NCBI GenBank assembly: GCA_021208605.1
Contig: JAJOJK010000002.1
Coordinates: forward strand, 1-37,605
Direction: 5' to 3'
DNA: 37,605 nt
From: Candidatus Woesebacteria bacterium
GTDB taxonomy: Bacteria; Patescibacteriota; Microgenomatia; UBA1400; UBA1396
In this document: positions 5,899-25,008 of the stretch, in pieces
Numbering within the stretch: position 1 is the stretch's first letter
Layout of the letters: each line of letters opens with the position of its first letter
Translations under genes and position numbers: made by a program
Notes under the pieces: generated by a model
Databases searched by the model: none
What the model was told of the DNA's origin: nothing
The model's input: the letters and a program-made list of their open reading frames with translations, nothing else

Positions 5899-5904
5899 TA
5901 TAAG
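5899..5904 (+). promoter_or_regulatory. Putative -10 box for the FN3/ABC operon
   Basis: TATAAG 53 nt before the preferred start at 5958; no clear -35. Confidence 0.35.
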
Positions 5905-5957
5905 TGAGAACTGCCCTGTGGATGACGCGTTTGCACAAGTTACACTCGGCAGAAACT

Positions 5958-8900
5958 ATGATATTCAAACAACTGAATCGCATCATCTTAGCAGTAACTC
6001 TCTGCACATTTGCCAGTTTATTTTTTGCCCCCGCTGCCCAAGCCGCGAGCGTGAGCTGGGACGGTGGCGGTGACGGTTCCTCTTGGTCCGACGCCACCAA
6101 CTGGAGCGGCGATGCAGTGCCTGGGGCTGATGATGACGTCACGATCGATATGAGCAGCGTGACAGTGAACATTGGCGCGGCTACGACCATTAATTCTTTG
6201 ACTCTCGGTAATGCGAGTGGCACAACGGATCCGATTCTCAATTTTAGCTACGATGCATCTTTAGCCCCACTCGTTATTGATGATGGTGATTTTACTATTT
6301 ATACGAACTCGGTGCTGACACATACAGCTGGTACAACGGCTGTTCAAGGGAAAATCTATGTTGATGTGCAATCTGGCGATATGTTTGTGTATGGCAGCAT
6401 TAATGTAGAAGGAAAAGGGTTTCAAAGATTCTCAGGTGACGGAAAACCGTGCTGTAATGAACGTCAGACCGGTGGTGCTTCGCATGGTGGCATTGGTGGA
6501 AACGGAAACAGCGGGACGTATGGCGCAGGAAGTACTACCATCTATGGTTCTGAGACCGCTCCAGTCACCTATGGAAGTGGCGGTGGCTACGATAATGGCG
6601 CAGGAACCGGCTCTGATGGTGGTGGTGCGGTTCGGCTCACAGTGAATGGAACGCTCACGGTGAATGGATCTATTAACGCGAATGGTGAAATAGCCTATGA
6701 ATGGTCGATCTATTCTGCTGGTGCCGCCTCTGGAGGTTCCATTTGGTTGGATGTTGGCACACTCGAAGGCACTGGTTCGGTTACTGCCAATGGTGGTGAT
6801 GGTGGGATCAATTATTCCTATGAATCGGCTGCAGGTGGTGGTGGTAGAATTGCTATTTACTATGATACTGATTCCAACGACTTTTCTGCGCTGAGCGCTG
6901 ACGCCGGAGCACTAGTAAATGGCACGACCGCAGCTGGAGACGGAACCCTGTACTTAGTGGGTAAAGTGGGGACTCCCTTCAATACTAAACAGTTCAAAAA
7001 CGATGGCATTACTGCCATTGGTACCGGTGGGGAAACCGATGAAGTCATTGTAAAAGCCAGCTTCCAAGTGGCCGATGGCGACAATCCCGAAACACTTACT
7101 CCCGAAGTGGAAGTACGCGAAGTTGGCACCGATTTTTCAGACGTTGCCACCCACACCGGTGATGATATTACGTATTCCGGCGGCGCAGGTGCAGTGGCGA
7201 CCGTATCTATGACTGGTCTGGTTGATGGCGCGAGTTACCACTGGCAAATGCGAGCGTGTGATGACTCAAGCCAGTGTTCTGAGTGGCTGAGTTATGGCGG
7301 CAATGCTGAAAATGCGGCTGACTTTACTGTCAATCAAAACACGCTGCCCAACAACCCAACTATACCTGGTTCCTCTTTCTTTATTGGCGGACAATATACC
7401 AACGATGCTCAGCCGAGTATTAGTTTCGTGCTCAGTGACGAGAACTCTGGCGATTCCGTCAAATACCAAATTCAGATTGCCGATAATGCCGGCTTTACTT
7501 CTCCTGCTGTGAATTATGAGTCGGCGTTAGGCGCTCAAGGCACATTTACATTTACTGTTGGTCAAGCCGAAGGAACCGGATCATATACAGCCGGAACTGA
7601 GGGACAAGAACTCACGAGCGGCAACTACTACTGGCGCGTAAAAGCGATTGATAGCAACGATGGCGAGTCCAGTTGGACTACTGCCTCTGGTACGCCAGCA
7701 TTTATTGTCGATCTCGTCGATCCTACTTCAGCGTCGAACGTGGTAGTGAAAGCGACTGCCGGCGCTTCATCTTCTTATTCCAGCCAAGAAGATGCCGTAT
7801 GGATGAGCAGCAACAGTCTCTATTTCGACTGGGATGCTGGTACTGACGCTTCCGGCGTAAAAGGATATTGTTTGTACTTAGGCACCAATCCAGTGGGTGA
7901 TGCCGCCACCGACAGCGGTATTTTAGGCTCTTCTCCGGTCAGCACAACTGGAAGTACCTGTGAATTTATTGTCGAGGACACGGAAGTCGATTTTGCCAAC
8001 ACCGCTTTGCGCAGCTATGACTGGCTCCAATCAAGTTCAGAGCCGTACTACTTTAAGATCAAGACGATTGATGAGGCCAACAATATTTTCGATGGCTCCG
8101 AGACAACCAATTCTGTTCCGTTCTACTTTGACAAAACAGCTCCATCCAATGTGTCGGCGTTATCGGCCACGAGCGGCAGTCTTTCCAGCGTTGGTAGCAT
8201 GTTTATCAGTTGGCCCACTTCTGGTGATGATGCCGCCGGCGACGCGCACTCTGGGATACTCGGCTTCCAGTATGGAATTAATTCGCGTAACACCTGGTAC
8301 GGTGCGAATACCGACGACACCACTGGCTTGAAATATACATCTTTAGGCGTTTCTCAACCATTCTATTTCCCGAGCTCCGTGCACAACTTGGTGAATTTAG
8401 GTCAAAATACAATTTATTTCCGTGTGCTTGATATTGCGGGGAATGTGTCTGAACTGCGTTCTGCCATTGTGAATTTTGGCGGTTCTGCGCCTGAATTTGC
8501 CGAGGATGATGAAGTCATTGTCACTCCGGAGCGTAATACCGAAAACAGTTTTGCGTTTAGTTGGCCAGAGGCTTCTCCATCGGCTGGTCGAACAGTATCA
8601 AAATACTACTACATGTTTAATACCACTCCACCTTCTCAACTTTCTACCATTACCTCGAATTCGGCCACATATAAATCCACCACCGGTCGGAGTATTTCTG
8701 CCGGAAGAATGCCTGGTTTGATTAAAGGGACAAACACTATCTATGTGGTAGCTGTTGATGACAACAATAACTACTCACAGTCCAACTCAATTCGCGCGGA
8801 TTTTGTATTGGATACAGAACTCCCAGATCCTCCATCGAACGTGACTGTAGCAGATAATTCGATTAAGTCGGCCTCTCTATGGCGCGCTTCGATAGTTTGG

Positions 8901-10367
8901 GAAGCTCCTTCTTACAAAGGTACTGGAGATTTAACGTACGTTGTACAGCGCTCTGTGGATGGAGACGAGTGGGAAGACGTGACAACTACCACGGGGAATG
9001 CCTACGTGGATACTGTATCGGAATCGAAACAGTACTATTGGCGCGTAGGTACGATGGATAATTCTGATGAATCAATTGCCGCTCCGTCGTATTCCAGCGC
9101 GGTTACGCTTACTCCGAAAGGTGCTTATACTGAGCCAGCTGATCTCACTTCCAATCCAGCCGCTTCCAACATTACAACAACAGACGCTACGATTAGTTGG
9201 ACCACTTCCCGTGAATCAGATAGTCGAGTGCTATATGGTTTGAAATCTGGAAGCTACTTTGAGGCTGAGCCTTCGAAATCTGATCAGGTAACGCAACATT
9301 CTATTCCGCTTGATAACCTTGAGCCTGGCACCAAATATTTCTACAAAGTTCGTTGGACGGACGAAGACGGAAATACTGGGGAAAGTGATGAATATGATTT
9401 CGCCACGGCTCCGCCACCAGAAGTCAAAAATGTTGAAGTGAGCAGCATAGGAGTGAGTACGGCAATCGTGAACTTCACTACTACGAATGCTTCCCAGGCG
9501 AAAGTCTACTTTGGGCCGTCAACAGACTTTGGTGGTGTGCGTGAACTCTCCACTTCACAACTGGAAAGTACCTACACAGTAGAACTGACTGAACTGCAAG
9601 ATGGCACGGAGTACTACTACCGCATTAACACGATTGATAGTGAAGGTAATGAGTATGAAGGAACCATCTTGCGTTTCCAAACGTTACCACGACCGGTAGT
9701 GTCCAATATTCAAGTGGAGCAGATTTCGAATACAGCGCAAACTTCTATTGTGGTTACCTGGCAATCAAATACTCCAATTACCTCGGTGGTGACCTATTAC
9801 CCACAAAATCAACCCGAATTAGTGCGAGACCAAGTGGATATTTCTCTGGCTGATGATGACCACTCAATGATCATTAAGGGCCTTTTCCCAGATACTACGT
9901 ATCTATTAAGAGTGAGTGGTCGCGACGCTATTGGTAACGAAGCGGTATCAGAGCCAATTACGGTTACGACGGCTCTAGACTCACGTCCGCCAGCAATTTC
10001 TGCTTTGTCGGTGGAAGGTGCGAATATTGATACTGTCCGTGATCTGGCGAATCCTTCGCAACTGATTGTTTCTTGGACCACCGATGAGCCTTCTACCTCC
10101 CAGATTGAATTCGGCGAAGGTACTGGGACTTCATATACTCAGCAGACACAAGAAGATATGACTTTATCCTTCAATCATGTGGTGGTTATTCCGAATCTTT
10201 CACCATCTAAGGTGTACCATTTACGCGCCATTTCTCGTGACTCTGCTGGCAATGAAAGTCGCAGTGTCGATACGGTTACTATTACTCCCAAAGCCACCGA
10301 TCAGGCACTGGATCTGGTAATAACGAATTTACGCGATGCCTTTGGATTTTTAGGAGACTTTCTATGA
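5958..10367 (+). CDS. Large secreted/surface protein: signal peptide, Gly-rich N-terminal region, several fibronectin type III-like repeats
   Basis: MIFKQLNRIILAVTLCTFASLFFAPAAQA signal peptide from the ATG at 5958 (ORF track GTG start 5904); repeated patterns such as TTDATISWTTSRESDSRVLYG and LEPGTKYFYKVRWTDEDGN. Confidence 0.88.
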   Translation: MIFKQLNRIILAVTLCTFASLFFAPAAQAASVSWDGGGDGSSWSDATNWSGDAVPGADDDVTIDMSSVTVNIGAATTINSLTLGNASGTTDPILNFSYDASLAPLVIDDGDFTIYTNSVLTHTAGTTAVQGKIYVDVQSGDMFVYGSINVEGKGFQRFSGDGKPCCNERQTGGASHGGIGGNGNSGTYGAGSTTIYGSETAPVTYGSGGGYDNGAGTGSDGGGAVRLTVNGTLTVNGSINANGEIAYEWSIYSAGAASGGSIWLDVGTLEGTGSVTANGGDGGINYSYESAAGGGGRIAIYYDTDSNDFSALSADAGALVNGTTAAGDGTLYLVGKVGTPFNTKQFKNDGITAIGTGGETDEVIVKASFQVADGDNPETLTPEVEVREVGTDFSDVATHTGDDITYSGGAGAVATVSMTGLVDGASYHWQMRACDDSSQCSEWLSYGGNAENAADFTVNQNTLPNNPTIPGSSFFIGGQYTNDAQPSISFVLSDENSGDSVKYQIQIADNAGFTSPAVNYESALGAQGTFTFTVGQAEGTGSYTAGTEGQELTSGNYYWRVKAIDSNDGESSWTTASGTPAFIVDLVDPTSASNVVVKATAGASSSYSSQEDAVWMSSNSLYFDWDAGTDASGVKGYCLYLGTNPVGDAATDSGILGSSPVSTTGSTCEFIVEDTEVDFANTALRSYDWLQSSSEPYYFKIKTIDEANNIFDGSETTNSVPFYFDKTAPSNVSALSATSGSLSSVGSMFISWPTSGDDAAGDAHSGILGFQYGINSRNTWYGANTDDTTGLKYTSLGVSQPFYFPSSVHNLVNLGQNTIYFRVLDIAGNVSELRSAIVNFGGSAPEFAEDDEVIVTPERNTENSFAFSWPEASPSAGRTVSKYYYMFNTTPPSQLSTITSNSATYKSTTGRSISAGRMPGLIKGTNTIYVVAVDDNNNYSQSNSIRADFVLDTELPDPPSNVTVADNSIKSASLWRASIVWEAPSYKGTGDLTYVVQRSVDGDEWEDVTTTTGNAYVDTVSESKQYYWRVGTMDNSDESIAAPSYSSAVTLTPKGAYTEPADLTSNPAASNITTTDATISWTTSRESDSRVLYGLKSGSYFEAEPSKSDQVTQHSIPLDNLEPGTKYFYKVRWTDEDGNTGESDEYDFATAPPPEVKNVEVSSIGVSTAIVNFTTTNASQAKVYFGPSTDFGGVRELSTSQLESTYTVELTELQDGTEYYYRINTIDSEGNEYEGTILRFQTLPRPVVSNIQVEQISNTAQTSIVVTWQSNTPITSVVTYYPQNQPELVRDQVDISLADDDHSMIIKGLFPDTTYLLRVSGRDAIGNEAVSEPITVTTALDSRPPAISALSVEGANIDTVRDLANPSQLIVSWTTDEPSTSQIEFGEGTGTSYTQQTQEDMTLSFNHVVVIPNLSPSKVYHLRAISRDSAGNESRSVDTVTITPKATDQALDLVITNLRDAFGFLGDFL

Positions 10368-11116
10368 GCACACCTACTTCCGCTATCACCGCTGAGGGAA
10401 TTTCCAAGTCATTTGAAGTTGGAGACCAGCGCGTACCAGTGCTAAAAAATATTTCATTTACAGTGAAACAGGGTGAATTTTTGGTTATTTTTGGTCCTTC
10501 TGGTTGTGGGAAGTCCACTTTGCTCCACGTTTTACTCGGTCTCGAGTTCCCGACCAAAGGTTCGGTCCAGATACACAATAAGAATATCTATGGTATGAAC
10601 GAAGATGAGTTGGCTGACTTTCGAAAACACGAAATTGGCATGGTATATCAACAACCCCACTGGGTGAAAGCGTTGAATGTGTTGGAAAATGTTGCTTTTC
10701 CACTCACACTTATGCGCGTTGAGAAAGAGCAACGCTTACAGCAAGCTCTGGAGCTGCTTCGCATGGTGGATATGGAAGACTGGGCACACTATTTACCATC
10801 TGAACTTTCGAGTGGACAACAGCAACGGGTGGCTCTTGCCCGCGCCATTATCAGCAATCCTGATCTGATAGTAGCCGATGAGCCCACCGGAAACTTAGAT
10901 TATGAAGCTGGTTTGCAGCTGATGAGTTTGTTGGAAAACATCAATAAGAAAACGGGCAAAACCGTTATTATGGTTACGCATGACTTGGAATACATGCCGT
11001 ATGCCACGCGGGCTTTGGAGATGTTGGATGGTGAAGTTATCAAAGAGGTCACCAACACAAATGCCTACGCCCAAAACGGCAATATCCCGCTGAAACGTGG
11101 AAATGGAAAACACTAG
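10364..11116 (+). CDS. ABC transporter ATP-binding protein, MacB/LolD type
   Basis: Walker [10 protein letters not shown], signature [14 protein letters not shown], Walker [17 protein letters not shown] overlap with the upstream stop. Confidence 0.97.
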
Positions 11117-12953
11117 TATGAAACTGCCCTCTGACTCCAACCGTCGTTCTTTTCGCCAATTCGTGGACTTTGTTTTGAGTCCCCTCTCATTGATGGCATT
11201 GATTATTCTCTATTGGCTGTATTTTATTTTAGAAAAAGCTGCCGCACGATTTCCACGCGTAAAGCGTCTGCGTCAGCGAATTTGGCAATCTGCAAAACTG
11301 CTTGATCCGCCAGCCAAGAAGCCAACCATTTCTCGTATTGATATTATCGAGCTGGCCCTGAAAAACATGCGAAGCAAGCGCATTCGCACACAAATCACTA
11401 TTTTCGGTATGACGATTGGTATCGCCGGCATTGTTTTCTTGGTTTCAATTGGCTACGGATTGCAAGATCTCGTGGTCAAACGAGTAGCTCGCCTGGAAGA
11501 GATGCGCCAAATTGATGTCACTGTTCCACCAGGAAGTAATCTCACTATTACTGAGAATTCTCTGCGTGACTTTGCCCAAATGGCCGATGTGCAAACGGTA
11601 GCTCCCATGATTGCTTTGGTGGCGCGCGCCAGTTATCAAAACTCAGCTACAGATCTTGTTGCGTATGGTGTGACCAGTGACTTCCTTGAGCAGTCGGCAA
11701 TCAAACCAGTCGAAGGACAGATTTTTACAAGTAACGAAATTGTTGTCGAACGGGAAAATGAACAGTCATCTTCGGGAGAGGATGCAAATGTAAATGCAGC
11801 TCGGGAAGCGCTTATTACGCTGGAAGCGGAAACCTGGTACCGAGTACGTGAAAATCCCAATCCAAATGCTCCCCTGCTCGGATATACGCGCTCAACTGGT
11901 AATGAGTATCCAGCAGAGATGGTTACCGGTGAAGAATATTTGGTCGGCACCGAACTCTCTAATGCTTGGGTGCGTGCTGAGGTGCCACTCTGGACCGAAA
12001 ACAACGGTGAGTATGAACCTGTCCGGGCGGATTCGGATCGTCAAGTGTATCGCTTTGGGTACATCACAGAGTCGAACTTGACGGTAATTCCGCTCAATGG
12101 AGAGCGTGAAAGAGGTCTATTGGAAGGACAATCAACGACCAAGCAAGTCAAACTTCCAGACAGCATTTCGCAAGATGTGGTCGTAAACCTGGCCACACTG
12201 CAGGTTCTGGGAATTCAACAAGAAGACGCGGTTGGCGAGGTATTTGAAGTTTCGTTTGTCGTTACGGGAGACCTTTTAGAGGATAAAGATACAAAGATTC
12301 AGTCATTCCCAGTTTCCTATCGCATTGTTGGTGTGACTCCAGATGATCGCTCCGCCATTATGTATGTTCCGTTTGCTGATATGCGCTTGCTCGGTGTGGA
12401 TCGTTTCTCGCAAGTCAAGGTAACCGTGAATGCGGAAAACCGTTTGCAACGAGTGCGCGATCAAATTGAGACACTTGGTTACAATACCAGCTCGGTTGTA
12501 GATACGGTGGTTCGCATCAATAGTATCTTCGGCACAGCCCGCACCATGTTGTTGGTGGTTGGTATGGTGGCGCTTATCATTGCTTCACTGGGCATGTTTA
12601 ATACACTCACAGTTTCACTGCTGGAGCGTACCCGCGAAGTAGGATTGATGAAGGCCATGGGACTGAAGTCCTCAGAAATCCGCGAACTTTTCTTGGCAGA
12701 GTCCATGATTATGGGCTCGGCTGGCGGAGTACTCGGACTCCTCGGAGGATACCTGAGTGCGAAAGTACTTGAAGTGATTCTATCTCTGTACACCCTGTAC
12801 AAAGGCGTTGGCTACATCTCAATCGCCAGTATCCCTTTCGGTTTCGCTCTGCTGATCTTGATTCTCTCGTTTGGAGTCGGACTTTTGACTGGTTACTATC
12901 CGGCCCGTCGCGCTACCAAGATTTCTGCCTTGAATGCATTACGATACGAGTAA
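11097..12953 (+). CDS. MacB/FtsX-type ABC permease with an internal SH3b-like insertion; start may be 11118
   Basis: N-terminal MacB core region (IELALKNMRSKRIRTQITIFGMTIGIAGIVFLVSIG), C-terminal FtsX region (LGMFNTLTVSLLERTREVGLMKAMGLKSSEIRELFLAES ... YYPARRATKISALNALRYE). Confidence 0.93.
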   Translation: MEMENTSMKLPSDSNRRSFRQFVDFVLSPLSLMALIILYWLYFILEKAAARFPRVKRLRQRIWQSAKLLDPPAKKPTISRIDIIELALKNMRSKRIRTQITIFGMTIGIAGIVFLVSIGYGLQDLVVKRVARLEEMRQIDVTVPPGSNLTITENSLRDFAQMADVQTVAPMIALVARASYQNSATDLVAYGVTSDFLEQSAIKPVEGQIFTSNEIVVERENEQSSSGEDANVNAAREALITLEAETWYRVRENPNPNAPLLGYTRSTGNEYPAEMVTGEEYLVGTELSNAWVRAEVPLWTENNGEYEPVRADSDRQVYRFGYITESNLTVIPLNGERERGLLEGQSTTKQVKLPDSISQDVVVNLATLQVLGIQQEDAVGEVFEVSFVVTGDLLEDKDTKIQSFPVSYRIVGVTPDDRSAIMYVPFADMRLLGVDRFSQVKVTVNAENRLQRVRDQIETLGYNTSSVVDTVVRINSIFGTARTMLLVVGMVALIIASLGMFNTLTVSLLERTREVGLMKAMGLKSSEIRELFLAESMIMGSAGGVLGLLGGYLSAKVLEVILSLYTLYKGVGYISIASIPFGFALLILILSFGVGLLTGYYPARRATKISALNALRYE

Positions 12954-12986: not shown

Positions 12987-14210
12987 TTATTTTCGGACAA
13001 ATAAAATGGCGTTAGGAATGTTTCTGCCTGGTCCTGCTTTATAGCCGCCGGACCACAAAGCAGTAGAACCACCACTATCTAAGTTGATGGCATTTTCCAT
13101 ACCGAGCGCACGTAACGCCCAGGCGGCCTCAGCCACTGTGGCCGAGTGAACGACGCCAATATACACCGTATTCCCCTTGTTCGCGACAAAACTGCGATTC
13201 CCTTTGCTCCCTTTTTTGGGATCACCGTCACCAGTGAAACGAATTTCGTTGCCACTCAAAAGTAAAGGAAAGTTGGAGAGTACTCCAGTCGGAGCAGTAT
13301 CGCGGCCCCACTGAGATGCAGCTCCCACAAAGCGAACTGAACCATCAAAAAAGATAACCGCTGGATTGGTACTATAGACATTGTTTTCGGAATTAAAATA
13401 GGTTTTATCTTTGTTCATGACCAGGAGATCAAACGAATTCGTTTTTCCCGCACAAGAAGGATAGCTGGCCGGACAAAAGTAGGTGCCGTTGATACCCGCG
13501 TAAGCTCCATTGCGGCTCACATAGTCTGATAATGGCAAAACTGGACAGTCGTTGGCGCAGTCGCTTCCACTTGCTGTATCGACAATGACGCGCGTGCTGC
13601 TCAAATCACCAGCAACCAGGCTGACCACGAAGGAACCAATATCCGTCTGCACTTGCTGACGACTGTAGCCGCTATTCGGTGCGTCATTGCTTGTGGTACT
13701 TGCTGTGGGAGCTGGGATGGCGGCCGCGGCGGCGAGTTGTTGTTCAGCGGCGGAGATATTGGTTTGCAGAGTTGCTAGTGAGGCTTCAGCGGAAGCATAG
13801 TTATGATCAGCAAGAAACGCGAGGATTTGCGCCCAAGTTTCTTCCAGCTCTTTGGTATCGTAGTTCCGGTCTTGTAATACTAAGAGTCGCTCGTATTCTG
13901 TTGTGGCTTGCGTGTTCGCAGTCTTGAGGTTCTCGAGTTGTTCTTGCAAGGCATCGTTCCGGACGCGCTGATCTTCGTTTTGGAGCTTCGTAAGCGTGGC
14001 AGACAGACTGGCGGAGTACTCAGCGCTGCTGCGATTTTCATTTTCCAACGAGCGAACATAGGCCGAGTATGATTGCCAATTATTCCAAGCGAACCAAGTT
14101 GCGATGGTTATTCCAATCAAAAGCGCACTGCCAGCCAGGGAAGTCCACACGAAGCGCTGCTTTTCGCGCCAGAATGTTTGGAGTTGGAGAAATCGGGCAG
14201 ATTTGGGCAT
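12987..14210 (-). CDS. Phosphodiester glycosidase (NAGPA/DUF2233-type) with N-terminal TM helix and coiled coil
   Basis: YAGINGTYFCP, APTGVLSNFPLLLSGNEI, NAINLDSGGSTALW, GRNIPNAILFV; N-terminal hydrophobic segment then Gln/Glu/Leu-rich heptads. Confidence 0.85.
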   Translation of the reverse strand: MPKSARFLQLQTFWREKQRFVWTSLAGSALLIGITIATWFAWNNWQSYSAYVRSLENENRSSAEYSASLSATLTKLQNEDQRVRNDALQEQLENLKTANTQATTEYERLLVLQDRNYDTKELEETWAQILAFLADHNYASAEASLATLQTNISAAEQQLAAAAAIPAPTASTTSNDAPNSGYSRQQVQTDIGSFVVSLVAGDLSSTRVIVDTASGSDCANDCPVLPLSDYVSRNGAYAGINGTYFCPASYPSCAGKTNSFDLLVMNKDKTYFNSENNVYSTNPAVIFFDGSVRFVGAASQWGRDTAPTGVLSNFPLLLSGNEIRFTGDGDPKKGSKGNRSFVANKGNTVYIGVVHSATVAEAAWALRALGMENAINLDSGGSTALWSGGYKAGPGRNIPNAILFVRK

Positions 14211-14518: not shown

Positions 14519-17173
14519 TCACATTTCTTCCCATAAATTGGTAAGATTTCCCGAATACATGGCCGTACCGAACCAAGCCCAGTTTTGAGTGTAGTAGTTT
14601 TGCGGGTCTTCCCAGAAGCTGTGTTGCTCGTCTTCGTAGAATTTTTGCTTGAGTTGCGTTTCGTAGATGCGTTCTGCTTCATCTGGCTGTACGGCCATGA
14701 AAAGTCCAATAGTGGCACCGTAGGCAGCCGCGGATTCGTAGCTCTCCCATACTTCTCCCGTATGTCGATAGGCAACAGAGATTCGACCGTTCTCTTGCCA
14801 CTCGTTTATGAGGAAGCTCAGTTTTTCTAAATACACCAGAGCCCGCGGATCTTCGTTCCATTGGTAGTCGAGCGCCACACGCCAGGGTACGCGGATGGCA
14901 TTGTAGGAATAGTCGGTGCTGGAAAGCCCCTCCTCTACAGACACCTGGCGCGCTGTTCCACTAGGAGTAATTTCACACCACTCGGGTGGAAGGAAAACAC
15001 TTGTATCATGACCGAGAGAACTTGCAGAGCATTTTTCCAACACTTCGTAACTCGTGTCGACAACAGATTTCCAGTTATGATTCGGATCTACCTCTTGAAA
15101 GATGCGGTAACTATACGGCGCAAGGTAAGATGGGTTGATAACTACACCTGGATACTGTTGAGCCCATGGTCCAGGTAAGAGATAGTATTTGCCGTTCATT
15201 TCCTTTACTTCGTGTTCCCAAATGGCGTCGATGACTTTCTCGGCTTGGATGCGGTAGGAGTCGTCATTCCAGCGTCTGGAAGCAAAGAGGAGGGCCAGGG
15301 CGATATCTTGGTCGGCATCGGTGGCCGAGTCAATGTCGATAGTGCCGATTTGGCCACTTTCATCTGGTCGGTACCGCCAAGAATAAAGCATGTCTTCATT
15401 GCGGAGGCGCTGATTGGCCCAAGTGAGTACTTCATCAAAGGTTTCTTGATCATTCATCCACACTGCTCGCAATAAGGCATAGGACTGGCCTTCCGAAGTG
15501 GTAATTTGGTTCTGTTGAAGATCGATTACCTTTCCGTTGGCAATGGAGTAGTCTTTGTATGAGTTCCAGGATCGCTCTAGAATGTGATGCGGATAGTAGG
15601 GTCGCCAAAACTCAACACTCCATCCGTCAGATTTGAACGATTTCCAGATACGAGAGTTATTGATAACGGTGGACGTGAGTGGTGAACTTCCAGAGAATAG
15701 ATCACCTTGCATCTGCGGTGTTTGCGCAACGAGGTCAACACGAGAGGGATCTTCAGCCAAGAGATCTTCGCGTACATCGGGATCTTGGTCAACTTTCCAA
15801 TACCACTCGGCGTCAGGAAAGACCAGGGTGGATGGGTTATCCGTGTCTTGCAGATCGATATACGCGTAGTTATCAATAATGATGATATCATCTGGCTGCA
15901 TGTGGTCACGAATCCACTGTACGGCCTCTAATTGGGCTTTGGTTTGTTGGCTCTGAAAGAAGAGATAGGTGCTTTTGGGATTGGCGAAAATATATTCTCT
16001 TTCATAGAGGAAAGCGTATCCAATAAAAATACTACCAATTACCAGCACGTACAGCCCAGTTCGCAGAGATTGATCTTTAAAAGCTTTTAAGAATGTTTGG
16101 AATCCTTCATGAATACAAATTGCACAGAATGCCGCGGCGAGTGGAATATACGGAACGATGTAGAAATCAATTACTACTCCACCGCGCATGAGGAAGAGGA
16201 TGAAGCCGAGTCCAAGCAGACCGAGTCCGGCATAAATACGACGGGAACGAATGAAAGCAATCAGAAGGACCGCGAGGTTCGCTAGTGGCCCAACAAACAT
16301 CAGAAAAGGATCCTGTTTTTTCCATTGCTGGTAGTGACACCAGATAGCTTTGGTTTCACAAACCAGAGAACTATTTACTCGTGATGATTGGTATTGCAAA
16401 GTGCCGAGCAGACTGACATGCTCCTCTGTTCCACCAAGTAAATGCCCAGTAGGAAAGAGTTCTCCTTTGAGGAGCGCGTACAAAAAGTAGAGGGAAATCA
16501 CGGACCCGCTAATCATGAGCCATTTCAGTAGAGCCAAATAGCGATGATACGAATGGGAAGATAAATACAGTGTCAGTAAAAATCCTGGAATGAAAAAAAC
16601 GGCATTTTCCTTCGTGAGCACAGCGATACCAAAACACAACGCGCTCAAAAAAACATGATTCATTTTCAGTTTATCGCGCAAAATGAGTAAGTAGGAAAGC
16701 AAACCCCAAAATACCATGATGTTATCAAGCAGGATTCGCCGCTGATAATAGAGACCAAGTGGAGATATTGAGAATAAGATGCCCGCAATGGCTGCTGCCC
16801 AGTTACTGCGTGTCATCCGCCGGGTGATGAGCATCAGTAGCAAGGTAGAAACAACGTGCAGCACCAGCATGAAGACTCGGCCTGTATTGAGCGAAAACCC
16901 AAAGGTATAAAACCCACCGGTCACAAAAGTCCAGAGAGCAATGAAGATCCAGCCTCCTGGTGCGTGATCATACCAGTACGTGTATGGAGCAAGTTTCCCT
17001 TGTGTTACGAGTGACCATGCTTGTGACATGTAGACACCCTCGTCGTTCTCGTAGTACGGAAAATGGAACATGTTGTGTCCATGAAATATGGCAACAAAAA
17101 TGAGTACTGCCGCAAAAAGAAAGACCGCTACCCAGTCTTTTCGAATGGGCGTAAAGGGAATGTTACGAAGCAT
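14519..17173 (-). CDS. GT-C membrane glycosyltransferase (GT39/ArnT-like) fused to a C-terminal glycoside hydrolase family 8 domain
   Basis: N-terminus: YENDEGVYMSQAW and many TM segments. C-terminal ~370 aa: SEGQSYALLRAVW, ATDADQDIALALLFASRRW, NPSYLAPYSYRIF, YSYNAIRVPWRVALDY. Confidence 0.85.
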   Translation of the reverse strand: MLRNIPFTPIRKDWVAVFLFAAVLIFVAIFHGHNMFHFPYYENDEGVYMSQAWSLVTQGKLAPYTYWYDHAPGGWIFIALWTFVTGGFYTFGFSLNTGRVFMLVLHVVSTLLLMLITRRMTRSNWAAAIAGILFSISPLGLYYQRRILLDNIMVFWGLLSYLLILRDKLKMNHVFLSALCFGIAVLTKENAVFFIPGFLLTLYLSSHSYHRYLALLKWLMISGSVISLYFLYALLKGELFPTGHLLGGTEEHVSLLGTLQYQSSRVNSSLVCETKAIWCHYQQWKKQDPFLMFVGPLANLAVLLIAFIRSRRIYAGLGLLGLGFILFLMRGGVVIDFYIVPYIPLAAAFCAICIHEGFQTFLKAFKDQSLRTGLYVLVIGSIFIGYAFLYEREYIFANPKSTYLFFQSQQTKAQLEAVQWIRDHMQPDDIIIIDNYAYIDLQDTDNPSTLVFPDAEWYWKVDQDPDVREDLLAEDPSRVDLVAQTPQMQGDLFSGSSPLTSTVINNSRIWKSFKSDGWSVEFWRPYYPHHILERSWNSYKDYSIANGKVIDLQQNQITTSEGQSYALLRAVWMNDQETFDEVLTWANQRLRNEDMLYSWRYRPDESGQIGTIDIDSATDADQDIALALLFASRRWNDDSYRIQAEKVIDAIWEHEVKEMNGKYYLLPGPWAQQYPGVVINPSYLAPYSYRIFQEVDPNHNWKSVVDTSYEVLEKCSASSLGHDTSVFLPPEWCEITPSGTARQVSVEEGLSSTDYSYNAIRVPWRVALDYQWNEDPRALVYLEKLSFLINEWQENGRISVAYRHTGEVWESYESAAAYGATIGLFMAVQPDEAERIYETQLKQKFYEDEQHSFWEDPQNYYTQNWAWFGTAMYSGNLTNLWEEM

Positions 17174-18425
17174 GTGACTCCCGGTGTGAATTCAAGTGTG
17201 TTGTTTTTTCCCAAGTATTTTGGCCTTGAGTGAGGTGAATAACACCCCGGAATGCTGCGATGCTCAGAAGAATTTGGTAAGGAAAATATGTTAATAAAAT
17301 GTGAAATGGTAAAAGGAGTGAGTAGGAGTATCCATAGCCGCGTGTAAAGGTATAGAGTCCGTAGTTATAGAGAACAAGCTGAATGAGTAATACGTAGGCT
17401 GGCAGGAGTGAAAACATTGCCCAGACCACAGGGAGCTCCAAAAACAGCATAGCAATGATTGTGAGTGGAAGATAAAAAATCCACAACGCTTGTATGAGTG
17501 GCATGATTAATAAGTAAGCCGTGAAGAGTTGACGACGTACACCAAGTAATTGTCGCCACTCAAAACGAAAAAAGATTTGTAGAAAACCTTGATTCCAGCG
17601 AGTGCGTTGTTTGATGAACTCAGCAATGGTGGTAGGTGTTTCTTCATGAGTTGTATGCGCTTCGTCATACACGATACCAATGTTAGCGCCTTGGAGAGAC
17701 AGACGAATTCCTAAATCTGCGTCTTCGGTTAGAATGTTTTCCGACCATCCATTTACACTTTTCAGTAGAGACTGGCGAATGAAAACAGTGTTTCCTCCTA
17801 GAGGCACTACACCAAATTGTGCATAAAAATGGAGAGCAGACTTAAACCAAAAGTAGTATTCAAGTACGTTCAAAGCTGAAAACCACTTAGAGGTGTAATT
17901 AATAAGTTGTACTCCTGACTGGAGGACGTCGTACTGGTGATCAATCATGAGCGTATTTACAATTTGCAAAATATCTGGATGAGGTTCGTCTTCGGCATCA
18001 AAAACAGCGACTACATCATTCCGGGCGTTTTTGAGACCAATATTCAGGGCCTTAGGTTTGTTGTCGATAGACTTGCTCACTATTTGAAGGCGAACCAATT
18101 GATTTTGCAGAGTGGGAATGACATCTCGCACAGCAGTAATGGTTTTCGCATCATCTTCGCGACATAAGACGATAACCTCGTAGAGTTCTGCCGGATAATT
18201 AAGTGAATTCATGGCGTGTAACGTATCGGCAATGACCTCAGCCTCGTTGCGTGCGGGAACCAGCAGACTGAAAGAATGGACAGGTGTTTGGAATTGTGTG
18301 GGAGATTTTCGCAAATGGAGCGTGTGTGGGTCGTTCCATGAGTAGGTCATGGTCAGGAGCGTGAAGAGAGAGTGAAAGAGCAAAATGAACGAGATAGCGA
18401 TAATAAGTATCGATACTAGTGTCAT
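17163..18425 (-). CDS. Processive-type family 2 glycosyltransferase (cellulose/PNAG-synthase-like, no PilZ)
   Basis: LLVPARNEAEVI, VFDAEDEPHPD, ILTEDADLGIRL, QRTRWNQGFLQ; N- and C-terminal TM segments. Confidence 0.92.
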   Translation of the reverse strand: MTLVSILIIAISFILLFHSLFTLLTMTYSWNDPHTLHLRKSPTQFQTPVHSFSLLVPARNEAEVIADTLHAMNSLNYPAELYEVIVLCREDDAKTITAVRDVIPTLQNQLVRLQIVSKSIDNKPKALNIGLKNARNDVVAVFDAEDEPHPDILQIVNTLMIDHQYDVLQSGVQLINYTSKWFSALNVLEYYFWFKSALHFYAQFGVVPLGGNTVFIRQSLLKSVNGWSENILTEDADLGIRLSLQGANIGIVYDEAHTTHEETPTTIAEFIKQRTRWNQGFLQIFFRFEWRQLLGVRRQLFTAYLLIMPLIQALWIFYLPLTIIAMLFLELPVVWAMFSLLPAYVLLIQLVLYNYGLYTFTRGYGYSYSLLLPFHILLTYFPYQILLSIAAFRGVIHLTQGQNTWEKTTHLNSHRESHAS

Positions 18426-22759: not shown

Positions 22760-24184
22760 CTACTCAACTACATCAAGTACAGCCGGACCAGAAAAATGCA
22801 GTGTTCCCTCCTGCTCGTACCGATCCAGCGCATTGGCCGGGTAATACACGTAGATGGTGCGCGCCACAGCACTGCTCATGTGCGTATCAGTTCGCAACCA
22901 CTTCTCAAAATACGGTTCTTCTAAGGCAATGCGCGCACTTTGCGCGGGTGGATGGCCTGCATACCAGAGTAAATACTGGTAATGATCATCGGCGGCATCA
23001 TAGACGTCGAGATGACCGCGATAAACCAACGCGTATGGCTCTTTTTGCGCCAGCTCAAGAATCGATTCCACCACCGGCAGGTGATCCGCAACGGTTTGAC
23101 CACGGAGTTCCGGCAAAACAGAAAACGCTTGTAGTGACCACAGGCCAAAGAAGCCAATCGCACCTGCCAGAGAAAACACCTGCCAACGAGGTCGGAAAAG
23201 TGATTGCAGACCAACGGGGATGACTATCGCCGGCGCCAAGAACAGAATGGCCAGTGCGTGATCGCCACCGACGGTTTTTAGTGTAAAGGCCATCATGCTC
23301 AAGGAGATCCAGACCAGGAGAATTGTTTCGTGTATCGGTGGTAAGAGCTGTGCACGCCAGCGGTCCCAGAGGTGCAAACACCAGAACACCAGTGTCGAGG
23401 CAAATATGACAAAGAGGAGTGTGGCGGCAAAGGGTGTCTGCGGAAAAGTGGCCAAAAGCCATTCGCGCGTCCAGTAGGCAAAGGAAGTCGTGCCGCGAAC
23501 TGCGCGCACGAGCAAGAGCAAACCACTGAGGAAGATTCCGGTGCCAATAATGCGTTGCTTCCAAACTCGATCAATACTGTCGGTAAACAAGAGCCAAATA
23601 ACAGCTTGCGCGGCCCACAAGACGGCTGCGGAAAAATTAAACTGGATGCCCAAAACGGGCAAAAGCGCTGCCGCCATCCACCACCGTCGGTTGTTACCCT
23701 GAACGGCTTCGGTCATACTCCACAACCACGCAATGACGATCAGCGGCAAAGGACTCGGCTCAATAGCGATTCGTGCCTGCCAAGTGACCAGTGGTGACAG
23801 GGCATACAGAAGCCCACTTACTACGGCCAAAATTTGGTTCTGCCAGTTACGCCAGACGTAAAGATACAGAAACGCAGTGGTAAACACACTCATTCCGGCC
23901 ACCATGACCGCTGGTCCAATGGGATGAAAATTGGAGAACCACAAAGCAACGGCCGTGAGGTAGTAATACAGCGGCCCCAGAGAGATGCCGGCCACAGAAG
24001 TTGCCGGCCCTTGCAATACGAAATCCCCCAGCAGAATATCGCGACCGGCAAGCATGGCACGGCCTTGGTCAGTAGAGAAAATAAGCCATTCTGGTAAGTT
24101 GTAGAAACGGAAAAACAGCACAACACTCAACACAATACTGAACCCAATTACGGCAGGCACAGTGCGGGCGGTGTCGGTACTCAT
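22760..24184 (-). CDS. GT39/ArnT-like membrane glycosyltransferase
   Basis: Multi-TM protein, STDQGRAMLAGRDILLGDFVLQGPATSV near the N-terminus; ATGA overlap with the parB stop. Confidence 0.8.
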   Translation of the reverse strand: MSTDTARTVPAVIGFSIVLSVVLFFRFYNLPEWLIFSTDQGRAMLAGRDILLGDFVLQGPATSVAGISLGPLYYYLTAVALWFSNFHPIGPAVMVAGMSVFTTAFLYLYVWRNWQNQILAVVSGLLYALSPLVTWQARIAIEPSPLPLIVIAWLWSMTEAVQGNNRRWWMAAALLPVLGIQFNFSAAVLWAAQAVIWLLFTDSIDRVWKQRIIGTGIFLSGLLLLVRAVRGTTSFAYWTREWLLATFPQTPFAATLLFVIFASTLVFWCLHLWDRWRAQLLPPIHETILLVWISLSMMAFTLKTVGGDHALAILFLAPAIVIPVGLQSLFRPRWQVFSLAGAIGFFGLWSLQAFSVLPELRGQTVADHLPVVESILELAQKEPYALVYRGHLDVYDAADDHYQYLLWYAGHPPAQSARIALEEPYFEKWLRTDTHMSSAVARTIYVYYPANALDRYEQEGTLHFSGPAVLDVVE

Positions 24185-25008
24185 GATTTTTGTTTGTTGG
24201 CGATAGACAGAATCAGATCAAGTTGTTTTTGCGTGTCTTGGATAGAACCATTGAGCTTAATATTGACTTGCGTTTGGCGGAAAGAACGGCGGATTTTGAC
24301 ATCAGAATCTTTTCCGAGAGCGCGATTCAGCTCTTTCGTCCAGCGATCAATATCTTTGGAAACTTGCAAGCGAGGCTTGTGTTCCTCATCTTTTTGCCCG
24401 GCCTCATTTTTGCTGCGGCGAACAAGTTCTTCGGTTCGGCGAACAGAGGCATTCTCTTTGAGCACCTGCTTGTAGGTGTCGATCATGACTTTGGTGTCGT
24501 TGATTCCCTGTAAGGCGCGGGCGTGGCCTTCGGTAATGAGCTCACTCAATAAGCCATCTTTAATGGCATCGGGAAGTTGCAGCAGACGAATCGAGTTGGT
24601 GACGTAGGAAACTGATTTTCCAATTTGTTTCGCTGTCTCAGTGGGAGATAAGTTAAATTCTGAGCTGAGGCGGTTCAGAGCATGAGCCCGTTCTATTGAG
24701 TTCAGATCAGAACGCTGGACGTTTTCGATAATCGACATCTCCAGCATGCCACGCGGAGATGTTTTTTTGACCACTGCCGGAATAGTTGGTAGTCCAGCCT
24801 TTTTTGTGGCGCGCCAACGGCGTTCACCCGCAATGATCTGATATCCAGCCGGTGTATGGGCAATGACAATTGGTTCTAAGACACCGTGGAGCTTGATAGA
24901 TTCCACCAAATCATTGAGTTCCTCGGGGTCGAGGTGTTTACGTGGTTGGTGGGGGTTCGGTTGGATCTGGTTGACGTCCAGTTCCTGTATCATTTGTCCA
25001 TCTGCCAT
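24181..25008 (-). CDS. parB: ParB/Spo0J-family chromosome partitioning protein
   Basis: IQPNPHQPRKHL, YQIIAGERRWRATKKAGLPTIPAVV, ENVQRSDLNSIERA, helix-turn-helix LSPTETAKQIGKSVSYVTNSIRLLQLP. Confidence 0.96.
   Translation of the reverse strand: MADGQMIQELDVNQIQPNPHQPRKHLDPEELNDLVESIKLHGVLEPIVIAHTPAGYQIIAGERRWRATKKAGLPTIPAVVKKTSPRGMLEMSIIENVQRSDLNSIERAHALNRLSSEFNLSPTETAKQIGKSVSYVTNSIRLLQLPDAIKDGLLSELITEGHARALQGINDTKVMIDTYKQVLKENASVRRTEELVRRSKNEAGQKDEEHKPRLQVSKDIDRWTKELNRALGKDSDVKIRRSFRQTQVNIKLNGSIQDTQKQLDLILSIANKQKS

Follow-up and report, generated by a model that had tools for sequence, protein, structure and literature searches.

A GT-C membrane glycosyltransferase fused to a GH8 domain beside a cellulose-synthase-like gene in Patescibacteria

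The fusion gene and its surroundings

The window analysed here, a 37,605-nucleotide stretch of contig JAJOJK010000002.1, comes from a Candidatus Woesebacteria genome of 1.08 Mb that is 99.75% complete. On its minus strand, one unbroken open reading frame, running from an ATG at 17173 to a TGA at 14519, encodes an 884-residue protein (P0001) in which a GT-C membrane glycosyltransferase is joined to a GH8 domain (Table 1). The plus strand of the same interval has stops throughout, ruling out a reading frame in that orientation. The original prediction had described a single uninterrupted frame of this length, with a GT-C N-terminus and a GH8 C-terminus. The frame is as it said, on the minus strand, which it had left unstated, and the two-part architecture is upheld by Pfam matches, an AlphaFold2 model and Foldseek comparisons. 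An assembly artefact is ruled out because the fusion recurs over its full length in independent genomes at 30–48% identity; among its close relatives, the named records belong overwhelmingly to Patescibacteria. The first 11 nt of the fusion gene are shared with the GT2 glycosyltransferase gene upstream.

Downstream of the fusion, the gene at 12987–14210 encodes a hydrophobic helix and a long charged stretch ahead of an NAGPA-type (phosphodiester glycosidase) domain; it is ruled out as a part of the module, as no homologue was found beside the other fusions compared. The interval 5904–12953 encodes a 1487-residue protein rich in Fn3/purple-acid-phosphatase-N type domains; an overlapping gene for a LolD/MacB-type ABC ATPase comes next, and then one for a MacB/FtsX permease. 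A second PMT_2 GT-C gene (22760–25008) overlaps parB by 4 nt (stop/start). The RNA features found in the window are tRNAs only, and a promoter and terminator scan returned about chance level.

Table 1. Positions in the window of the fusion gene, its domains, selected active-site codons and the upstream gene.
Feature	Position	Strand	Evidence
GT-C::GH8 fusion gene (P0001), 884 aa	14519..17173	-	ORF, Pfam, AlphaFold2 model
GT-C membrane glycosyltransferase domain, residues 1-395	15989..17173	-	PMT/PMT_2 match, AF2 helices, positive-inside count, Foldseek AglB/STT3
D44-E45 codons, GT-C signature acidic pair	17039..17044	-	first extracytoplasmic loop; invariant 30/30; codons checked
Soluble extracytoplasmic domain of GT-C (predicted), residues 396-520	15614..15988	-	own HMM matches unfused GT-Cs
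GH8 (alpha/alpha)6-barrel domain, residues 521-884	14522..15613	-	PF01270 E=4e-46; Foldseek BcsZ target TM 0.86
E561, GH8 catalytic acid (CelA Glu95), present	15491..15493	-	alignment; codon checked
D621, GH8 subsite -1 aspartate, present	15311..15313	-	TDAD motif alignment; invariant 30/30; codon checked
N758 at GH8 catalytic base position (CelA Asp278)	14900..14902	-	alignment; codon AAT; Asp in most relatives
Upstream GT2, processive-type motifs FDAED, LTED, QRTRW	17163..18425	-	PF13641 E=1.7e-38; best PDB match BcsA E=1.5e-11

Fold and topology of the GT-C half

Residues 81–230 of the window protein match PMT_2 (E=1.1e-7; 32.6 bits against a gathering cut-off of 26.1) and PMT (E=5.9e-7; 29.7 bits against 22.7), which places this half among GT39/GT83-like GT-C enzymes. 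Identity as a protein O-mannosyltransferase equivalog is ruled out by the curated cut-off of NCBIfam model NF058602, against which the protein scores 25 bits where 800 are needed. AlphaFold2 models the window protein with a pLDDT of 87.9 and a pTM of 0.73 from an alignment of 30 homologues; without an alignment, the model reached a pLDDT of only 39. Searched against the PDB with Foldseek, the GT-C part matches AglB/STT3 (best E 5.6e-8), and oligosaccharyltransferases are its nearest relatives there. Five of its residues (D44, E45, H70, K188 and Y338) are the same in all 30 fusions compared.

Eleven transmembrane helices are predicted in the GT-C domain, in an N-in/C-out orientation that we read from the AlphaFold2 helices, placing helices 43–58 and 73–85 in the first outer loop. 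Lysine and arginine make up a fraction of 0.30 of the inside loops versus 0.08 of the outside loops (mean over 30 sequences), and this positive-inside pattern, taken with the orientation, predicts that both catalytic domains lie on the extracytoplasmic face. A 12-helix topology is ruled out, as the C-terminus would then fall inside and the pattern would be lost. Residues 396–520 are part of the GT-C rather than the GH8 half, because an HMM built on them also matches unfused GT-C proteins of Chloroflexota and Actinobacteria. Two checks proposed with the original prediction thus came out in its favor: the modeled folds match AglB/STT3 and, for the (alpha/alpha)6 barrel, BcsZ/CelA, and the topology places the GH8 domain outside.

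Recurrence and evolution of the fusion

Together with the window protein, 32 fusions found elsewhere make up the set of 33 analysed here, mostly from Patescibacteria with a few from Chloroflexota. A collection scan recovered Patescibacteria fusions in Levy-, Roizman-, Woese-, Ames- and Magasanik-labelled records, as well as in Moranii-, Andersen-, Doudna-, Pace- and Saccharimonadia-type records, and two fusions in Chloroflexota. As a single-sequence query in the genome scan P0001 gave no match; an alignment query did find fusions. GH8 domains are scarce, occurring in 4/88 genomes of the order, 27/374 sampled in the class and 23/380 sampled in the phylum. Nine class-level genomes, the window's included, carry GH8 in frames of ~860–890 residues, all nine of which match both halves of P0001; the phylum sample holds further long GH8 frames, judged on length alone. 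The original prediction had allowed that the fusion might prove common and already characterised, and the first half of that reservation holds in part: the fusion is recurrent but uncommon, at about 2–3% of the genomes sampled from the class or from the phylum. The literature searched, with CAZy and UniProt outside its scope, held no description or characterisation of a GT-C::GH8 protein, and the novelty of the architecture is unproven.

In a GH8 tree, the fused domains group with unfused GH8s of Patescibacteria and with those of Chloroflexota. The nearest unfused Patescibacteria GH8s adjoin a cellulose-synthase-like GT2 in 9/9 loci inspected. The cassette acquired GH8 at least twice, judging from this tree, because the GH8s encoded in actinobacterial operons form a clade distant from the fused grouping. 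Fused and unfused forms of the GT-C cluster in their own tree, yet they intermingle among Chloroflexota and among a few Patescibacteria, and gain of the fusion is therefore not separable from its loss. Two genomes (G018 and L095) show GT-C and GH8 as apparently separate genes; true fission was rejected there in favour of a contig break and a frameshift. One fusion (L081) lies on a contig binned as Methylophilaceae; in each of the two trees its sequence has a Saccharimonadia sequence as partner, for the GH8 as for the GT-C, and the contig is probably mis-binned.

Partner genes of the cassette

A GT2 gene of the cellulose-synthase type lies directly upstream of 28/33 fusions; of the five without it, three come second in a tandem pair and one begins at a contig end. 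FDAED, LTEDA and QRTRW are invariant in the aligned partner GT2s. The window's upstream gene carries the motifs of processive GT2s (D, DxD, ED and QxxRW), and its nearest solved structure is BcsA. In many loci, the GT2 is preceded within the same protein by a DPM1-like domain (best PDB match the DPM synthase 5mlz, E=2e-32), with DPM present in just 18/33 fused cases within the DNA fetched. One relative (L076) has a GtrA–GT2 fusion, and two others (L081 and L095) a DPM–GtrA. The host genome itself encodes a DPM–GtrA protein on another contig (G000:C14:1982-3271), unlinked to the operon, so that the lipid-sugar synthase and GtrA of multi-component transmembrane glycosylation are both present in the host and are linked or fused in relatives.

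In Actinobacteria, GT2, GT-C, GH8 and DPM occur as separate neighbours, and Streptomyces has GT2, GT-C and DPM without GH8. The cassette is repeatedly paired with glycan hydrolases: GH5 genes adjoin it in G018, G066 and a ktedonobacterium, and a GT-C of the same family in Shapirobacteria (L110:5935-8352) bears a C-terminal GH3 domain (PF00933, E=3e-46), a second GT-C::GH fusion. Three Chloroflexota partner GT2s (L101:4172-5914, L105:3255-5969 and L102:2450-4138) carry FHA or GAF domains, which suggests control through phosphorylation or through binding of a small ligand. In Arthrobacter (L115:7929-8915), the gene for a DUF4397 protein separates those for GT-C and GH8, and a similar-looking protein occupies the same place in a Microbacterium locus (L122).

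The GH8 half and the loss of catalytic residues

PF01270 (GH8) matches residues 535–776 of the window protein (E=4.2e-46; 158 bits against a cut-off of 24). The top phmmer match in the PDB is CelA (1cem, E=1.6e-30), and by Foldseek the GH8 part of the AlphaFold2 model aligns to a BcsZ target with a TM score of 0.86 and to CelA with 0.81. The curated cut-off of the NCBIfam BcsZ equivalog NF008305 (299 bits, against a score of 142.6) nevertheless rules out BcsZ identity. Glu95 of CelA, the catalytic acid, is kept as E561, and Y683 (CelA Y215), D621 and R761 are kept as well. R761 corresponds to R245 of BcsZ, which tethers cleaved chains (PMC8805304). The catalytic base, Asp278 of CelA, aligns without gaps to N758; the window protein thus lacks the base aspartate that defines GH8a, which most other fusions carry. 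Asparagine at this position beside an intact acid also occurs in two related fusions (L072 and L074), and one unfused GH8 (L071) has asparagine there too.

Cleavage by the window protein is therefore doubtful, with E561 kept but the base replaced. The original prediction had tethered transfer and cleavage at the outer membrane face: the predicted topology supports the location of both active sites, and the asparagine counts against the cleavage. Chain binding with little or no hydrolysis is the likelier role of this barrel, because the catalytic base is missing, and in a BcsZ with alanine at the base (D242A) cellulose hydrolysis was nearly gone and bacterial cellulose was barely altered (PMC8805304).

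Across the family, the GH8 acid is absent from 11/33 fused domains and from 0/33 unfused ones (Fisher p=0.0004, with kinship ignored), and its loss takes at least seven changes on the tree. All checked catalytic residues are intact in 19/33 fused GH8 domains, and hydrolysis is still likely for most members because of this. A fused GH8 without the acid is accompanied by another, intact GH8 in two loci (L085 and L088) and by a GH5 in a third (L087). The second protein of L088 (8558-10723; 721 residues) follows the fusion and consists of an unrecognised hydrophobic N-terminal half and an intact GH8; a 728-residue frame after the fusion in G521 resembles it. The GH8 half probably serves in part as a glycan-binding module, given that the acid is lost in a third of fused domains and in none of the unfused ones while the GT-C residues stay invariant. 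This combination suggests that the barrel is retained without catalysis.

Coupled synthesis and trimming is the strongest alternative for the window protein, although we consider it rather improbable. Here, the GH8 would be an active endo-glucanase, served by another base or a water network, and would edit the polymer or release it during GT-C decoration, as BcsZ does in trans for cellulose. E561, D621, Y683 and R761, the complete sites in the majority of fused domains, the company that BcsZ-type GH8s keep with cellulose synthases (PMC5070118) and the variation of the base, or proton acceptor, between GH8 subfamilies (PMC5407803) are all consistent with it, whereas the asparagine at the base, the near-loss of hydrolysis in D242A (PMC8805304) and the repeated loss of the acid in fused domains argue against it.

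A proposed decorating role and its alternatives

The cassette pattern points to a decorated cell-surface polysaccharide, because the fusion recurs across Patescibacteria beside a cellulose-synthase-like gene. On balance, we lean towards the fusion being an extracytoplasmic glycan-decorating enzyme that acts on the polymer of its operon partner, with the GH8 barrel binding or trimming the same chain. Domains, predicted topology, operon, recurrence, partner genes and active-site changes were computed here; for the polymer, the transferred sugar, the acceptor and the role of the GH8, we infer the following. The upstream GT2 would polymerise a beta-glycan, probably beta-1,4-glucan-like, and, like BcsA, extrude it across the membrane. 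A polyprenyl-phosphate sugar would be made and flipped by a DPM1-type synthase with an attached GtrA flippase, and the GT-C may then transfer this sugar to the emerging chain at the outer membrane face. The fused GH8 barrel would bind the nascent chain in its cleft and present it to the GT-C, and members with a complete GH8 active site may also trim it. In the large GT-Cs of known multi-component transmembrane glycosylation systems, binding of the acceptor polymer is believed to be the task of extracellular carbohydrate-binding domains (PMC8035078).

A protein O-glycosyltransferase could also account for the PMT-family similarity: a PMT-like GT-C would modify secreted proteins, and the GH8 fold would anchor it to a cell-surface glycan. 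The PMT and PMT_2 matches, the structural proximity to oligosaccharyltransferases and the DPM-type donor synthases would fit such an enzyme. We nonetheless regard it as unlikely: the O-mannosyltransferase score is very low, and the processive-type GT2 that almost always accompanies the fusion and the repeated pairing with glycan hydrolases point to a polysaccharide. Least probable is an upstream GT2 that supplies the GT-C with its lipid-linked donor and forms no polymer, leaving the GH8 to act on an external glycan: such GT-A and GT-C pairs exist in multi-component transmembrane glycosylation (PMC8035078), but this GT2 carries the QxxRW motif of processive synthases, and in many loci a separate DPM1-type domain is fused to it or lies beside it.

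Beyond the decorating enzyme itself, we raise a broader and more tentative possibility. Patescibacteria, Chloroflexota and Actinobacteria may have in common a so far undescribed class of beta-glycan, synthase-dependent and branched outside the cell, whose GT-C decorator captured a GH8 barrel that was repeatedly converted to an acceptor-holding module or, in the N758 forms, to a natural transglycosylating or synthase-like domain.

Patescibacteria have genomes of about 1 Mb and mostly uncharted cell surfaces, and a conserved, fused polysaccharide cassette offers a handle on their coat and on how they may attach to partners. With GH8 repeatedly inactivated beside an intact GT-C, the conversion of a glycan hydrolase to a guiding or binding function becomes open to testing, and the natural series of aspartate, asparagine and glutamate at the base position is a ready set for asking how inverting hydrolases lose or change activity.

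Comparison with known systems

The GH8 half resembles the BcsZ/CelA-type endo-1,4-glucanases (GH8a) in its fold, catalytic acid, subsite aspartate and arginine, and in its setting, as its nearest unfused homologues adjoin cellulose-synthase-like GT2 genes. Unlike these enzymes, it is fused to a GT-C and tethered to the membrane, has asparagine in place of the base aspartate and falls below the NCBIfam BcsZ cut-off. The cassette shares the pairing of a processive GT2 with a GH8 with the bacterial cellulose operons bcsABZC (PMC5070118), from which it differs by an additional GT-C and DPM decoration arm and by a GH8 that is in cis with the GT-C. With the multi-component transmembrane glycosylation systems (such as CsbB/GtcA/YfhO; PMC8035078) it has in common a GT-C, a DPM/GT-A-type synthase, GtrA and the proposed extracytoplasmic transfer onto a polymer. 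In contrast to them, a processive-type GT2 replaces the genes for teichoic acid or cell wall polysaccharide, and the GT-C bears a GH8. The cassette combines these glycosylation systems (PMC8035078) with those built from a synthase and a GH8 (PMC5070118). A published Actinoplanes EPS system was considered as a match and set aside as a different system.

The cyclic beta-1,2-glucan synthase Cgs (GT84, cyclase and GH94; PMC10901819) is the closest known case of a single chain that holds both a membrane glycosyltransferase and a GH-family domain. Both of its domains act on one glucan, and its C-terminal region is a glucan-binding surface (PMC10901819). The soluble domains of Cgs are all cytoplasmic, unlike those predicted for the window protein, and its GT and GH folds and mechanism differ as well (PMC10901819).
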